Origin: Bacteroidota bacterium
Lineage (GTDB): Bacteria; Bacteroidota; Bacteroidia; Chitinophagales; Chitinophagaceae
Assembly (NCBI GenBank): GCA_005883765.1
Contig: VBAQ01000077.1
Span: forward strand, 1 to 45,096
Length of the DNA: 45,096 nucleotides
Direction of reading: 5' to 3'
A program made the translations under genes and the position numbers. Numbering within the stretch: position 1 is the stretch's first letter; each line of letters begins with the position of its first letter. The notes under the pieces are model-generated. The model was not told where the DNA came from and ran no database searches. It worked only from the letters and a program-made list of their open reading frames with translations. This document shows, piece after piece, positions 22,381 to 34,191 of this stretch.

Positions 22381-22398
22381 AAGCCCCGCAAGGGGCTT
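22381..22398 (+). terminator. Hairpin terminator after greA
   Basis: AAGCCCC / GGGGCTT with a GCAA tetraloop, 3 bases after the greA stop. The downstream T-run is short and interrupted. Confidence 0.6.
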
Positions 22399-29956: not shown

Positions 29957-30218
29957 CCACTCCCAAAACGATGATGTTACCATTATATTGCCGGAAGTCG
30001 ATGGGGACTTGGAAGTTGTATTTTTTTTAAATCTTCTTTCACATATTTACTCGACCTCCGTTGCCTCGACTCTTGTATTGCAACGATTCTGCTCAGCAAT
30101 CAACAATCTTGCCGAATAGCGATCTGAACGTACAAGTGAGTGACACAACAGGTGCTGAAGAGAATTACTAAAGTTGGAGCATAATAAAAAAACATACCAT
30201 AAGGAATCAGTAACAAGA

Positions 30219-33200
30219 ATGGAATACAAATTCAGAGATATTGAAAAAAAATGGCAGCAGTGGTGGAAGGAAAAGAATATTTACAAGGTTGAGAATGCCA
30301 GTAGCAAGCCCAAATGCTACGTGCTCGATATGTTTCCGTATCCGAGCGGAGCGGGATTGCATGTAGGGCATCCCCTGGGATATATTGCGAGCGATATTTT
30401 CGCAAGGTTCAAGCGATTAAAAGGGTTTAATGTACTACACCCGATGGGATATGATGCGTTTGGTCTGCCCGCAGAGCAGTATGCGATCGAACACGGCATT
30501 CACCCGGCTGTTTCGACGGAGAACAACATCAATATTTTTCGCAAGCAGTTAGACAATATTGGTTTTTGTTTTGACTGGAGTCGCGAAGTGCGTACGTGTG
30601 ATCCGAAATATTACAAATGGACACAATGGATTTTTTTGCAAATTTTTGATAGCTGGTTCAACCGAAAAATTCAAAAGGCCCAACGCATCAGCCAACTAAT
30701 GAAAATTTTCGGAGAAACAGGAAATCTACAGCATGAATTTCCAAATGAAAAATTTGAATTGCCTTCCGGCAAGACCCAATTCACTGCTGAGGAATGGAAA
30801 TCGTTTGATGAAAGGTTAAAACAGGAAATACTGATGCAGTACCGTTTGGCATACCTGGCCTATACGGATGTGAATTGGTGCGAAGCCCTGGGAACTGTTT
30901 TGGCAAATGATGAAGTGATCAATGGTTTGAGCTATCGGGGCGGATTCCCGGTAGTTAAAAAGAAGATGAGGCAATGGAGCCTGCGCATTACAGAATATGC
31001 CGATCGACTGTTGAAAGGCCTGGAAGAAATTGATTTCAGCGAGTCAATGAAAGATATTCAGACGAATTGGATCGGGAAGAGTAGCGGAGCGGAGATTTTG
31101 TTTCGAATACAAGCCCCAACCCAGTCTTCCCCTGAGGGGAAGGAGAGCCAGCGCACAGAGCCTCGGTATCGAACAGCACAAACTTCTTTGTACCATTTCA
31201 CAAAGATATTAGCCGAAGAAAAGAGAAAAAATCCCACACATGAAGAGATGTTGATGTGGCAAAGATTGAAAAATAATCAAACAGGTTTTCACATTCGCCG
31301 ACAACATATCATTGGAGCATACATGGTGGATTTTGCATGCCTTGATAAATTAGCAACGATAGAAATCGATGGAGCATATCACAATGAACCGGAGATAAGG
31401 AAATACGATGAGGCAAGAACAAAATTCTTAGAAGAAAATGGGTTTACCGAACTCCGGTATTCAAATAAAATGGTGAGAGCTGATATTGAAAAAGTAATCT
31501 CTGATATAATTTCTAAGCTGAGCAGCCTTCCTTCGGTTCCTAAAAAATCGGAATCTTCGAAAGTCTTCCCCTCAGGGGGAGATTTAGAGGGGGCTTCTTT
31601 TCGTGTTTACACCACCCGCCCTGATACGATTTTTGGGGTGGATTTCATGGTGCTGGCTCCCGAACATGAACTGGTCAAACAAATTACGGCCCCCCCGCAT
31701 TCGGAAGAAATAGAAAAATATCTTTTGTATGTGCAGGGTCGGAGCGAGGTTGAGCGAATGGCCGAAGTGAAAAAGATCACTGGTTGTTTCACCGGCGCCT
31801 ATGCCATTCATCCTTTTAATAAAAAACGAATTCCTGTTTGGGTATCTGAATATGTGTTGGTAGGCTATGGAACAGGAGCTATCATGGGGGTGCCTTGCGG
31901 AGATGAAAGAGACCATAAGTTTGCAAAGCATTTTAATATTCCAATCACAAATATTATTGGTGATTATTATAATGGTGAAGAAGCAAATCCAACAAAGGAT
32001 GCCGTTTTACAAAATAGTGATTTCCTCGATGGAATGGTAATGAGAGACGCGATTGAAGTGGCTATTGATAAAATGGAAGAATTAAAAGTAGGAGAGAGAA
32101 AAGTAAATTATAAAATGAGGGATGCAGGATGGAGTCGTCAGCGTTATTGGGGTGAACCGTTTCCCGTAATATTCAGAGATGATATTCCATATGCCATGGA
32201 CGAAAAAGATCTTCCCCTGGAATTACCACCCCTGAATGATTTCAGATCTGCAGGCACTGGTGAAGGCCCATTGGCTAACGCAAAAGACTGGGTACAGATC
32301 AGTGAGCATGAGAAGAGAGATACGAATACAATGCCGACACATGCGGGAGCAGCCTGGTATTTTCTTCGATATATGGATCCTCATAACGATAAAATTTTTG
32401 CCGAGAAGAAAAATCTTGATTACTGGGGACAGGTAGATGTATATATTGGAGGATCCGAACATGCAGTTGCGCATTTACTGTATTCCAGGCTTTGGGTAAA
32501 AATTTTGAATGATCTTGGTTACGTGGACTTCGATGAGCCGTTTAGAAAATTAATTAACCAGGGAAAAATAACCGGTGATTCGAGATTTGTGTATCGCATT
32601 CGTAACAAAAATATGTTCGTATCGTTCGGACTTAAAGATCAGTATGAAACCGATCCATTGCACGTAGATGTAAATATTGTAGATGGACTGGAATTGGAGA
32701 TAGATGCATTCAGAAATTGGAAACCTGATTTTGCAGATGCGGAATTTATTTTAGAGAATGGAAAATATATCTGCGGATCTGCCATTGAGAAAATGAGTAA
32801 ATCATATTTCAATGTTATTAATCCCGACACCGTTGTTGAAAAATATGGTGCCGATACATTCAGGATGTACGAAATGTTCCTTGGACCCCTTGAAGCTTCA
32901 AAACCCTGGGATATTAAAGGCATTGAAGGGGTGCATCGGTTCTTAAAAAAATTTTGGCGGTTGTATGTTGGTGAAGAAAAAGGTTTGATCGTCACAAATG
33001 AGCCGGCAACCAATGAAGAACTAAAGATTCTTCATCAGGCAATAAAAAAAATTCAAGAAGATACAGAACGATTCTCTTTCAATACCTGTGTGAGTGCTTT
33101 TATGATCGCCACGAATGTGCTTACCGATCTTAAATGTCACACGCGTTCAATTCTTGAGCCCTTGCTGATCTTGCTGGCTCCTTATGCGCCGCATATTGCC

Positions 33201-33509
33201 GAAGAACTGTATCAGCAATTAAGAAGCTCGAAAGTCCTCCCCTTAGGGGAGGATTTAGGTGGGGCCTCTTCCGTTGTTGATGCCACCTATCCACAGTTTG
33301 AAGAAAAATATGTGAAAGAATCTTCAAAAACTTATCCAGTTGCCATCAATGGTAAAACAAGAACCGAATTGACAATTGCGCTCGATGCTACTCAGCAGCA
33401 GGTTGAAGAACTTGTTTTAGCGAATGACGTCGTTAAAAAATGGATGGAAGGAAAACCACCGAAAAAAGTGATCTATGTGAAGAATAGGATGGTGAATGTA
33501 GTTGTGTAG
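30219..33509 (+). CDS. leuS: Leucine--tRNA ligase with two in-frame palindromic insertions, one carrying a DUF559 domain
   Basis: A 1096-residue leucyl-tRNA synthetase, well above the usual 860-930. It charges tRNA-Leu and edits mischarged products. Motifs: HVGH (48-51), KMSKS (858-862), and the editing-domain threonine-rich motif YTTRPDTIFG. Inserted at about residues 296-462 is a segment absent from normal LeuRS, between GAEILFRI and FRVYTTRPDT, the turn leading into the CP1 editing domain. It carries a DUF559 domain. A second insert of about 15 residues (SSKVLPLGEDLGGAS) lies in the C-terminal anticodon-binding region before VVDATYPQFEEKY. Removing both leaves a normal-looking synthetase. 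ATG 30219 gives the canonical MEYKFRDIEKKWQQWW; an upstream in-frame TTG is rejected. Confidence 0.96.
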   Translation: MEYKFRDIEKKWQQWWKEKNIYKVENASSKPKCYVLDMFPYPSGAGLHVGHPLGYIASDIFARFKRLKGFNVLHPMGYDAFGLPAEQYAIEHGIHPAVSTENNINIFRKQLDNIGFCFDWSREVRTCDPKYYKWTQWIFLQIFDSWFNRKIQKAQRISQLMKIFGETGNLQHEFPNEKFELPSGKTQFTAEEWKSFDERLKQEILMQYRLAYLAYTDVNWCEALGTVLANDEVINGLSYRGGFPVVKKKMRQWSLRITEYADRLLKGLEEIDFSESMKDIQTNWIGKSSGAEILFRIQAPTQSSPEGKESQRTEPRYRTAQTSLYHFTKILAEEKRKNPTHEEMLMWQRLKNNQTGFHIRRQHIIGAYMVDFACLDKLATIEIDGAYHNEPEIRKYDEARTKFLEENGFTELRYSNKMVRADIEKVISDIISKLSSLPSVPKKSESSKVFPSGGDLEGASFRVYTTRPDTIFGVDFMVLAPEHELVKQITAPPHSEEIEKYLLYVQGRSEVERMAEVKKITGCFTGAYAIHPFNKKRIPVWVSEYVLVGYGTGAIMGVPCGDERDHKFAKHFNIPITNIIGDYYNGEEANPTKDAVLQNSDFLDGMVMRDAIEVAIDKMEELKVGERKVNYKMRDAGWSRQRYWGEPFPVIFRDDIPYAMDEKDLPLELPPLNDFRSAGTGEGPLANAKDWVQISEHEKRDTNTMPTHAGAAWYFLRYMDPHNDKIFAEKKNLDYWGQVDVYIGGSEHAVAHLLYSRLWVKILNDLGYVDFDEPFRKLINQGKITGDSRFVYRIRNKNMFVSFGLKDQYETDPLHVDVNIVDGLELEIDAFRNWKPDFADAEFILENGKYICGSAIEKMSKSYFNVINPDTVVEKYGADTFRMYEMFLGPLEASKPWDIKGIEGVHRFLKKFWRLYVGEEKGLIVTNEPATNEELKILHQAIKKIQEDTERFSFNTCVSAFMIATNVLTDLKCHTRSILEPLLILLAPYAPHIAEELYQQLRSSKVLPLGEDLGGASSVVDATYPQFEEKYVKESSKTYPVAINGKTRTELTIALDATQQQVEELVLANDVVKKWMEGKPPKKVIYVKNRMVNVVV
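31104..31603 (+). mobile_element. Palindrome-bounded DUF559 element inserted in frame in leuS
   Basis: The termini are inverted repeats. The left end starts CGAATACAAGCCCC and continues to CTTCCCCTGAGGGGAAG (from 31125). The right end carries CTTCCCCTCAGGGGG (from 31564) and finishes GGGGGCTTCTTTTCG. The reverse complement of the right end matches the left over CCCCTGAGGGGAAG and AAGCCCC exactly. Each terminus is itself palindromic. Between them is a DUF559 domain (residues about 332-433 of LeuRS): EEKRKNPTHEEMLMWQRLKN, HIRRQHIIGAYMVDFAC, ATIEIDGAYHNE, KYDEARTKFLEENGF. These match the Vsr-like endonuclease fold, with the Asp of VDF, the Glu/Asp of IEIDG and the His of YHN. The reading frame is open throughout. 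No clear target-site duplication. Confidence 0.8.
33228..33273 (+). repeat. Second copy of the element terminus, in frame in leuS, no cargo
   Basis: Starts TCGAAAGTCCTCCCC, continues TTAGGGGAGGATTTAGG and ends GGGGCCTCTTCCG. It aligns end to end with 31557-31603, with about eight differences and one length change, and is read in the same frame (SSKV-P-G-DL-GAS in both). The core CCTCCCC-TTA-GGGGAGG is a perfect palindrome. Confidence 0.8.
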
Positions 33510-33551
33510 AAACACCTGGTGGAGAATGAATATCGACCAAGGAACAAGGAA

Positions 33552-33586
33552 TTTCGATCTACTTATTTCGGATTTCGGATTTTAAT
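33552..33586. repeat. Heptamer array (TTTCGGA family)
   Basis: Five units in register: TTTCGAT, CTACTTA, TTTCGGA, TTTCGGA, TTTTAAT. The word TTTCGGA is the same as in the array at 22405-22488. It lies in the gap between the convergent leuS and 33595 genes. Confidence 0.55.
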
Positions 33587-33594
33587 CGGACTCT

Positions 33595-34191
33595 TTAGGG
33601 GAGATGCGGCGGCTCTTCCTTTTTTAATTTGATCATCGCACTGCTATTTTCTGTACTTGCTAATTGTGCATCGTATCGTTTGTCGCCGACTATCGCAACC
33701 ATATAAGAAGTATTTGGAGGAATTTCCCCCAGGTTTTCTGCTACCATGATGAGCTCATTCGTTTCCTTCAGATCACTGACCGCTAATTTTACAACATAAG
33801 CTTTCTCAGTTAGATTGATGTGCTCAAAAATAAGTTTGCCGTTTAGAAAAAGAGAAATGGAATCACCGTCAATTTCTGCATTATCATAAAAGCGCAGTTC
33901 AATTGAATCCCCCGTTAATGTGATCTCCTTTTGAAAAACTTTTTCACGACTTGTAAATTTTTGCACAATGGAAGGTGCCGCAATTCTTGTTTCTCCAAAA
34001 GATGGACCCTGGACTGGTCTGTTTTCCTGTTTCGAAACAGGAACCATCACCAATTCTTTTTTCGCGGCAGAATCTTTTTCATCAGGCTGATCATTTTTTA
34101 CCAAAACGGGCTTCTGTTTATCTGCCATTGTATCAATGGAAGGCGTCATAGTAGTTGGTTGCAAAGCAATGGAGGAAACACTATCGATCAT
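33595..34191 (-). CDS. C-terminal part of a split conserved secreted protein
   Basis: A 198-codon frame whose ATG (34191) overlaps the stop of the upstream frame by ATGA. The N-terminal third is a Pro/Lys/Asp-rich linker. The rest is a compact domain: SREKVFQKEITLTGDSIELR, FYDNAEIDGDSISLFLNGKL, ELIMVAENLGEIPPNTSYMV and GDKRYDAQLASTENSSAMI. This domain is common at the C-terminus of secreted Chitinophagaceae proteins; function unknown. Its own frame continues upstream without a stop (WDFIINNYTVGANDPDM). That joins the 34188-34724 frame if one copy of the 17-bp tandem repeat at 34231-34264 is removed. It is therefore probably the 3' half of one gene. Confidence 0.7.
   Translation of the reverse strand: MIDSVSSIALQPTTMTPSIDTMADKQKPVLVKNDQPDEKDSAAKKELVMVPVSKQENRPVQGPSFGETRIAAPSIVQKFTSREKVFQKEITLTGDSIELRFYDNAEIDGDSISLFLNGKLIFEHINLTEKAYVVKLAVSDLKETNELIMVAENLGEIPPNTSYMVAIVGDKRYDAQLASTENSSAMIKLKKEEPPHLP

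Follow-up and report, generated by a model that had tools for sequence, protein, structure and literature searches.

A DUF559 nuclease gene between palindromic inverted ends, translated in frame within leucyl-tRNA synthetase, as a probable copy of a mobile element in Bacteroidota

How does an essential gene come to contain a nuclease domain in the middle of its reading frame, and what kind of DNA carried it there? Here, we address this question for leuS, the gene of leucyl-tRNA synthetase (LeuRS), in a 45,096-nt stretch of contig VBAQ01000077.1 from a Bacteroidota bacterium of the family Chitinophagaceae (assembly GCA_005883765.1). This whole stretch is hereafter called the window, the genome containing it is G000, the other genomes of our survey are numbered G001 and onwards, and L numbers denote individual loci. 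An insert of about 500 nt in the window leuS encodes a domain of the family DUF559, and the reading frame is kept through the whole insert. We consider it probable that this insert represents one copy of a mobile palindromic element with a single gene, for an EDxHD/Vsr-like DUF559 nuclease, that it is tolerated by being translated in frame, and that the nuclease would drive its movement. The finding suggests a type of mobile DNA that has received little notice and persists as a translated part of host proteins.

The LeuRS translated from the window retains both the HVGH and the KMSKS motif, and Pfam places DUF559 (PF04480) at residues 333-436, after the catalytic and before the editing domain (E=2.2e-26; 92 bits against a cut-off of 20.6). 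The insert is bounded by an inverted repeat, positions 31104-31142 against 31565-31603, which is 79% complementary over 39 nt, and both arms contain a CCCCT/AGGGG palindrome. This inverted pair scores 38, compared with a maximum of 22 among 30 mononucleotide shuffles. The original prediction, made from the letters of the window, had described an in-frame DUF559 insert of about 500 bp with palindromic inverted repeats, set between two intact halves of LeuRS and lacking intein splice signals, and this description holds on each count. For the HINT splicing domain of inteins, no Pfam or NCBIfam match was found up to E 0.001 in the 1098-aa LeuRS, and an Rfam search of positions 30100-33600 for group I/II introns up to E 1 gave one sub-threshold hit, which lies outside the insert; the intein and intron readings are set aside on these results. 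Between the arms of the window copy, Pfam shows only DUF559 and no transposase gene as in DDE insertion sequences, and when the window insert and ten embedded copies were tested for the Y1/HUH transposase (PF01797), only DUF559 and host domains appeared. Since one strong leuS match was found in G000, the window gene seems to be the sole copy of leuS in this genome.

The scale of the phenomenon goes beyond the original prediction and far exceeds one gene. Within leuS itself, a solo repeat without nuclease is read in frame near the 3' end, and a PF04480 search of G000 gave nine matches at eight loci, i.e. seven besides leuS. At these loci, DUF559 is, for example, joined in frame to the N-terminus of ArgB (C104), located in frame within IcmF, where it separates the B12-binding from the GTPase part (C152), or encoded by a stand-alone gene (C229), and CCCCTAAAGGGG-type palindromes flank both sides of the ArgB copy and of the C229 copy. 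G000 also holds dispersed repeats without DUF559, the exact type I hairpin defined below alone occurring at 28 places. Two further DUF559 copies of this genome, L002 and L009 (G000:C194 and C293), are 98% identical over 184 nt; one ends at a contig edge, and the copy that is not cut there is without significant inverted ends.

DUF559 recurs across the family. Among 117 genomes of the same family, a DUF559 match was found in 59, strong in 49 and weak only in ten. We read 88 copies in frame, comprising 82 from relatives and six of the nine rows of G000; outside this set are some 30 rows with weaker or fragmentary matches, as well as two scoring more than 90 bits (G066:C1:632702 and G079:C412:5634). 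When copies with more than 70 stop-free codons upstream or downstream of the domain are taken as embedded, 47 of the 88 are embedded in, or fused to, other proteins in frame and 41 stand alone. Pfam analysis of ten embedded proteins identified as hosts chorismate synthase (AroC), CinA, adenine deaminase, MetH (at two different sites), MetRS, the fused methylmalonyl-CoA mutase IcmF, the amino acid kinase ArgB, HisA and GcpE/IspG, which together with LeuRS gives ten host enzymes confirmed by Pfam. In six of the Pfam-tested hosts, DUF559 splits one host domain, which is matched in two stretches with DUF559 adjoining the inner end of the better one.

Insertion in LeuRS itself occurs at either of two places: site A precedes YTTRPDT and is occupied in 14 LeuRS from 13 genomes, and site B precedes TNTMPG and is occupied in five genomes. 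One LeuRS of G014 (L048, G014:C90) is occupied at both, with two DUF559 inserts in a 1315-codon frame. Host names assigned by eye from translations are HsdR, M23, IleRS, IspF, the alphaproteobacterial cases, LeuRS site B, ThrB and a DUF58-like gene. The binned genome G013 contains two different LeuRS (L074, L092), each with a different DUF559 insert, which may represent a mixed bin or true paralogues.

The inverted palindromic ends recur together with the nuclease. For each copy, the 300 nt upstream were locally aligned with the reverse complement of the 300 nt downstream, a score of at least 28 being counted as strong, and flanks taken 700-1000 nt further out served as controls. Strong inverted ends were found in 57 of the 88 copies (32/47 embedded, 25/41 stand-alone) as opposed to 0 of 83 control flank pairs, and in the named genomes with full flanks in 35 of 45 as opposed to 0 of 45 controls. 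The 57 strong-ended copies have a median span of 517 nt, and in 34 of them both arms lie above a simple palindrome threshold. Inverted orientation outscores direct orientation in 64 of the 88 copies, the direct score being higher in 22, with two ties. As judged by eye, the arms are composed of a tail and a hairpin and are of four types (Table 1), and no GTAG or CGTC tag is evident in them. Further, arm similarity tracks DUF559 similarity between different genomes (57 elements, Mantel r 0.43, p 0.0005), as expected where enzyme and ends form one unit.

Table 1. Features of leuS and its insert, in positions of the window, and the arm types distinguished among DUF559 copies.
Feature	Position	Strand	Description
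leuS	30213..33509	+	single frame from ATG at 30213, no internal stop; 1098-aa protein
leuS 5' part	30213..31103	+	catalytic core with HVGH; host sequence as far as the CP1 hairpin
Left terminal repeat	31104..31142	+	tail AAGCCCCAACCCAGT, then palindrome CTTCCCCTGAGGGGAAG (31126-31142)
Lead-in to DUF559	31167..31205	+	encoded by the element: YRTAQTSLYHFTK; resembles the G013 (second LeuRS) and G074 copies
DUF559 nuclease domain (EDxHD/Vsr-like)	31206..31520	+	D, ExD, H motif retained (MVDF...IEIDGAYH)
Right terminal repeat	31562..31603	+	palindrome CTTCCCCTCAGGGGGAG (31565-31581), then tail ATTTAGAGGGGGCTT
leuS 3' part	31604..33509	+	YTTRPDT, editing domain, KMSKS, anticodon-binding domain, stop
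Solo repeat without nuclease	about 33229..33268	+	like the insert's ends; in frame near the leuS 3' end; encodes KVLPLGEDLGGAS
Arm type I			ACCTCACCCC..CCCCTCTCC..GGAGAGGGG; by eye
Arm type II			GCCCCCTCTAAAT..CTCCCCC..GGGGGAG; by eye
Arm type III			GCCCC..CCCCTAAAGGGG; by eye
Arm type IV			ATCCCCTCC..GGAGGGG; by eye

Occupancy of LeuRS site A is sporadic, which bears on whether the insert could instead be an old LeuRS domain that was inherited vertically and lost many times. Site A was read in 99 LeuRS rows from 98 genomes (the LeuRS of 16 of the 117 genomes was left out, and three loci were unmatched by the pattern). DUF559 is present in 14 of these rows, a nuclease-less repeat in two (G079, G116) and another long loop of 29-58 residues in four, and the remaining rows have a loop of 14-24 residues. 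In G116, a short stretch without DUF559 is enclosed by the inverted ends AAAGCCCC/GGGGCTTT, and in G001, of the same genus as G000, site A is empty. By eye, site A is also occupied in the isolate Flavobacterium subsaxonicum DSM 21790, in Dokdonia, in a Prevotellaceae genome and in others, and site B in the isolate Ilyomonas limi 17mud1-8.

An old domain would fit the sharing of one site by 14 LeuRS of the family and those of Flavobacterium, Dokdonia and the Prevotellaceae genome, as well as a weak correlation between host and insert identity given below, but we hold it to be very improbable. The 14 site A inserts amount to 13 changes on the LeuRS tree, where shuffled labels average 13.3 (259/500 as low), and the well-supported branches alone require at least seven changes. 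The nearest hosts hold unlike inserts: between G000 and its nearest LeuRS relative, the first copy of G013, the host part is 83% identical and the insert 41%, while for G000 and G074 both host part and insert are 66% identical. Site A inserts are, moreover, spread over several DUF559 clades mixed with other hosts. In the DUF559 tree, copies from AroC and from both LeuRS sites are intermingled within one supported clade, where the LeuRS-A copy of G068 and the LeuRS-B copy of G106 form a pair with support 100/95. A copy from adenine deaminase is likewise grouped with one from MetRS (100/88); copies have thus switched host gene. The original prediction had proposed that an insert common to all related LeuRS, with no such repeats elsewhere, would speak for an old lineage-specific domain, and the opposite was found on both points, the repeats being dispersed and related elements being present in many other genes.

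The same prediction had considered an assembly chimera. An assembly or binning chimera is conceivable in a genome as fragmented as this one (403 contigs), but the insert lies about 31 kb into a 48-kb contig and homologous in-frame inserts occur in many independent genomes, including the two isolates named above, and we give this explanation practically no weight.

Mobility is also suggested by copies at operon junctions. Two copies in G064 (L088, L094) are 97.7% identical over 484 nt and lie upstream of two unrelated genes, where the element's 3' end provides an ATG overlapping the DUF559 stop. As a result of this ATG, a DUF58-like protein and ThrB (names given by eye) start with identical element-encoded residues, and recent copies at operon junctions are a possible mode of start-codon capture. 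Two observations on the site A turn stand apart from the element. In L129 (G076), the same turn holds a 58-residue loop that is dissimilar to the element, and at two empty site A loci, L128 (G001) and L340 (G011), the hairpin at the turn is encoded by short tandem repeats (AATTCAG and ATTCAAC units), indicating that the loop accepts simple repeats too.

With regard to the nuclease itself, the D, ExD and H pattern is present in 45 of the 47 embedded copies, the two misses being L042, which has EFD where V, I or L is required, and L119 (a CinA copy), which has lost the E. Purifying selection acts on DUF559: amino-acid changes relative to silent ones amount to 0.10-0.29 in 13 pairs (12 embedded, one stand-alone), the value being pN/pS in seven of them, where silent sites are saturated, and dN/dS in the others. 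A profile built from 18 domains has matches in PDB 3hrl (E 2.9e-30) and 3r3p, a 'mobile intron protein' (E 1.6e-6) that we take to be the homing endonuclease I-Bth0305I, and gives a weak match to the restriction enzyme PvuRts1I (E 0.001). These matches indicate an EDxHD/Vsr-like catalytic domain, a kinship that the original prediction had given for DUF559. In the cited excerpt of a published study, one DUF559 gene is likewise placed in the EDxHD homing endonuclease family (PMC9403480). At LeuRS site A, 11 of the 14 copies are without an in-frame ATG shortly upstream of the domain, and only three of those 11 are also without GTG and TTG; given the missing ATG, it is probable that the nuclease at this site is synthesised chiefly within the LeuRS polypeptide.

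Translation together with an essential enzyme and the absence of an own in-frame ATG shortly upstream in 11 of the 14 site A copies, although most of these have a GTG or TTG, would also suit a domesticated and beneficial LeuRS-DUF559 fusion, for example one in which nuclease-based regulation or defence is tied to LeuRS, and so would the intact active site and the purifying selection. We nevertheless find such a non-selfish fusion improbable, as DUF559 is joined to ten Pfam-confirmed enzymes, its distribution over the LeuRS tree resembles that of labels placed at random, and different DUF559 lineages have contributed inserts to one and the same site. For a defence role, PADLOC gave weak hits only (E of at least 0.0068).

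Which enzyme accompanies the repeats can be asked of the dispersed hairpins. The exact type I hairpin pattern (CCCTCTCC, 2-6 nt, GGAGAGGG), which prescribes the stem and finds variable loops, matches 311 places spread over 45 of the 117 genomes, as opposed to 0 occurrences of the backward pattern in all 117. At least three exact hairpins are present in 24 of the 49 genomes with a strong DUF559 match and in two of the 68 others (Fisher p 2e-9), or in 24/59 versus 2/58 if genomes with weak matches are counted as DUF559-positive (p 8e-7). RAYT genes, found in 67 of the 117 genomes including G000, split the same trait into 19/67 with and 7/50 without RAYT (p 0.075). Considering both genes, at least three hairpins occur in 18/32 genomes with DUF559 and RAYT, 6/17 with DUF559 only, 1/35 with RAYT only and 1/33 with neither; these counts include the arms of the elements and the statistics ignore phylogeny. 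The dispersed hairpins are associated with DUF559, not clearly with RAYT. Of 30 solo-repeat loci sampled for context, 12 were placeable; five lie well within long frames, one of them being a LeuRS site B element. At G089:C6:71342-71746, six type I-like repeat matches of the looser pattern described below stand in tandem with a regular 77-nt spacing.

An explanation that we regard as unlikely, though more seriously than the foregoing ones, is that DUF559 is a passenger, the palindromic repeats being moved by a REP-type Y1 transposase or by recombination between dispersed repeats and carrying whatever lies between them. Palindromic repeats near Y1 transposases are described in Bacteroidetes and Cyanobacteria in the cited excerpt (PMC6006769), RAYT genes are present in more than half of the genomes surveyed here, the window's genome among them, the direct repeats outscore the inverted ones in the 22 elements noted above, and two hairpin-rich genomes are without a strong DUF559 match. 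However, inverted ends were found at 11 of 30 RAYT loci tested, and by eye their arms are different and often have a GTTTGTAG-like tail, although three loci (L380, L391, L392) do carry a CCCC..GGGG palindrome. The hairpin counts of DUF559-only as opposed to RAYT-only genomes, the kept active site and the purifying selection also speak against a passenger. The RAYT (Y1 transposase) matches listed in the 117 genomes include no frame longer than 287 codons, and the search for cargo between repeats covered DUF559 and RAYT. As a mover of the repeats, RAYT is disfavoured by the hairpin counts, which have no clear RAYT association, and by its arms, which differ by eye. The original prediction had ascribed to the insert the logic of Rickettsia palindromic elements, with a nuclease as passenger; this fits, with the change that DUF559 recurs as partner of the repeats and is not a one-off passenger.

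Several observations weigh against a mobile element driven by DUF559. The arms of the window copy are degenerate and, folded singly, are no better than dinucleotide shuffles (35/200 and 38/200 fold equally well), so that the strength of the case comes from comparing copies. No strong inverted pair is present in 31 of the 88 copies, and the direct score exceeds the inverted one in 14 of the 62 copies with any strong pair. A weak correlation between host and insert identity at site A (Mantel r 0.27, p 0.009) indicates some vertical descent. G039 (30 hairpins) and G045 (14) are the hairpin-rich genomes without a strong DUF559 match, which loss of DUF559 or a missed copy would explain; another mover is an alternative for these two. 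A strict repeat pattern matched only six places in G000, and a looser tail-plus-stem pattern is associated with DUF559 (24/49 vs 8/68, p 1.5e-5) but poorly specific, its backward control giving 187 matches vs 307, and was for this reason replaced by the exact hairpin pattern. For type II, the backward control is uninformative because the reversed pattern is nearly the same pattern shifted by one base. A target-site duplication or exact empty site was sought and none was callable, the flanks of relatives being too diverged (67-81% nucleotide identity). Mobility is read here from the comparison of genomes. Finally, palindromic ends were absent from three of six plasmid DUF559 genes examined outside Bacteroidota, those of Sinorhizobium, E. 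coli and Shinella, showing that some DUF559 genes lie outside such elements.

Those six genes come from 44 records with a DUF559 match in a plasmid collection. Long palindromic inverted ends are present at the genes of Pseudanabaena (score 128) and Sphingomonas (74), and the ends in Picosynechococcus are borderline (29 vs 24). In a scan of wider genome contigs, the best 80 of at least 567 relatives include 48 that are embedded by the same rule, a share biased upwards by a query built from embedded copies, and inverted ends are present in 56 of the 78 with both flanks. Nineteen of the best 80 are named outside Bacteroidota, ten with inverted ends and eight with long frames; as GC-rich genomes give long frames by chance, these cases are leads. 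Among viral contigs, 22 DUF559 relatives were observed (L198-L219), for 20 of which the viral contig is 4-10 kb long.

On the mobile element reading, which we continue to prefer, the element would consist of about 500 nt with one DUF559 gene between inverted terminal repeats, each itself palindromic. As a relative of homing and Vsr enzymes, the nuclease may recognise the palindromic ends or a nearby target, and cutting at the repeats and/or the target could start repair-based copying into a new site, like that of homing or REP transposases. Copies would enter many genes, those breaking essential genes would be lost, and the survivors in essential genes would be stop-free, in-frame copies at tolerant surface loops. 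The nuclease would then be produced without splicing, as a domain in the interior or at the N-terminus of the host enzyme. Nuclease-less solo repeats are dispersed in the same genomes and can occupy the same site. The comparisons establish that the unit recurs with inverted ends, that its occupancy is sporadic, that copies have been exchanged between host genes and that the nuclease is under purifying selection; its role in movement is inferred.

A broader proposal, about which we have slightly more doubt than confidence, is that DUF559 could be the engine of cross-phylum palindromic mobile elements, parallel to and independent of REP/RAYT, and a source of GC-rich palindromic repeats in Bacteroidota and perhaps Cyanobacteria. 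Such elements would settle beside conserved motifs of essential genes and keep the frame, so that the mobiliser is made as a domain of LeuRS, AroC, MetH or MetRS, or, at operon junctions, would provide the following gene with its start codon, and only frame-keeping excision would be non-lethal. Elsewhere in the window, a CCCCGCAAGGGG palindrome at positions 22384-22395 is possibly a further dispersed repeat.

If the mobile element reading is right, DUF559, widespread but of unknown function, would prove to be the enzyme behind a type of mobile DNA that has so far gone unrecognised, and the question of how palindromic repeats without a RAYT partner are moved and maintained would become directly testable. 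Essential bacterial enzymes would then contain, as one of their internal domains, a nuclease of foreign origin, and new domain architectures would arise in an unusual way. There would also be a warning for annotation, as many DUF559 'fusion proteins' may be insertion products.

In the open-access literature searched, as represented by the excerpts available, no account was found of DUF559 with palindromic ends, of its in-frame insertion or of a DUF559 element, although absence from open-access sources is not proof. Several known systems nevertheless share individual features with the element. EDxHD homing endonucleases such as I-Bth0305I and free-standing homing genes have a related catalytic domain (3r3p) and recurrent gene sites, and differ in that no intron or intein splice domain was found here. 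To our knowledge, palindromic ends and solo copies are not a feature of homing genes. VsrA of Caulobacter, a Vsr-like DUF559 protein, has the same Pfam domain, and the cited excerpt mentions neither palindromic ends nor host-gene insertion for it (PMC12907096). In Legionella, a segment with a transposase and DUF559 is reported, again in excerpt, as a recombination hotspot (PMC12308824). The WHO elements of yeasts, as described in the excerpt cited (PMC7282813), likewise comprise a homing-type nuclease that is associated with a core gene, FBA1, and involves no protein splicing; WHO takes the place of the FBA1 3' end, whereas the element described here is internal to the gene and stays in the protein.

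The closest parallels lie in palindromic repeats. In REPtrons, which combine REP with the RAYT/TnpA-REP Y1 transposase, an enzyme gene is flanked by palindromic repeats, solo copies are dispersed and the repeats follow the enzyme lineage, according to the excerpts cited (PMC3733652, PMC6006769). Here, too, a gene lies between inverted palindromic repeats that are dispersed, but the enzyme is a DUF559 nuclease and not an HUH/Y1 transposase, the arms at RAYT loci differ by eye, and the RAYT frames listed are at most 287 codons long. Rickettsia palindromic elements (RPE) and intragenic REPs are short palindromic repeats that are translated in frame in housekeeping genes and also occur between genes, and the cited excerpts give RPE a length of about 100-150 nt and mention no gene in them (PMC4316617, PMC3733652). 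A palindromic repeat translated in frame is thus common to both, and the solo copies alone would pass as short repeats without a gene of their own. The full element, with DUF559 inside and its longer span, is different in this respect: a nuclease gene lies between inverted palindromes and is translated inside the host protein.

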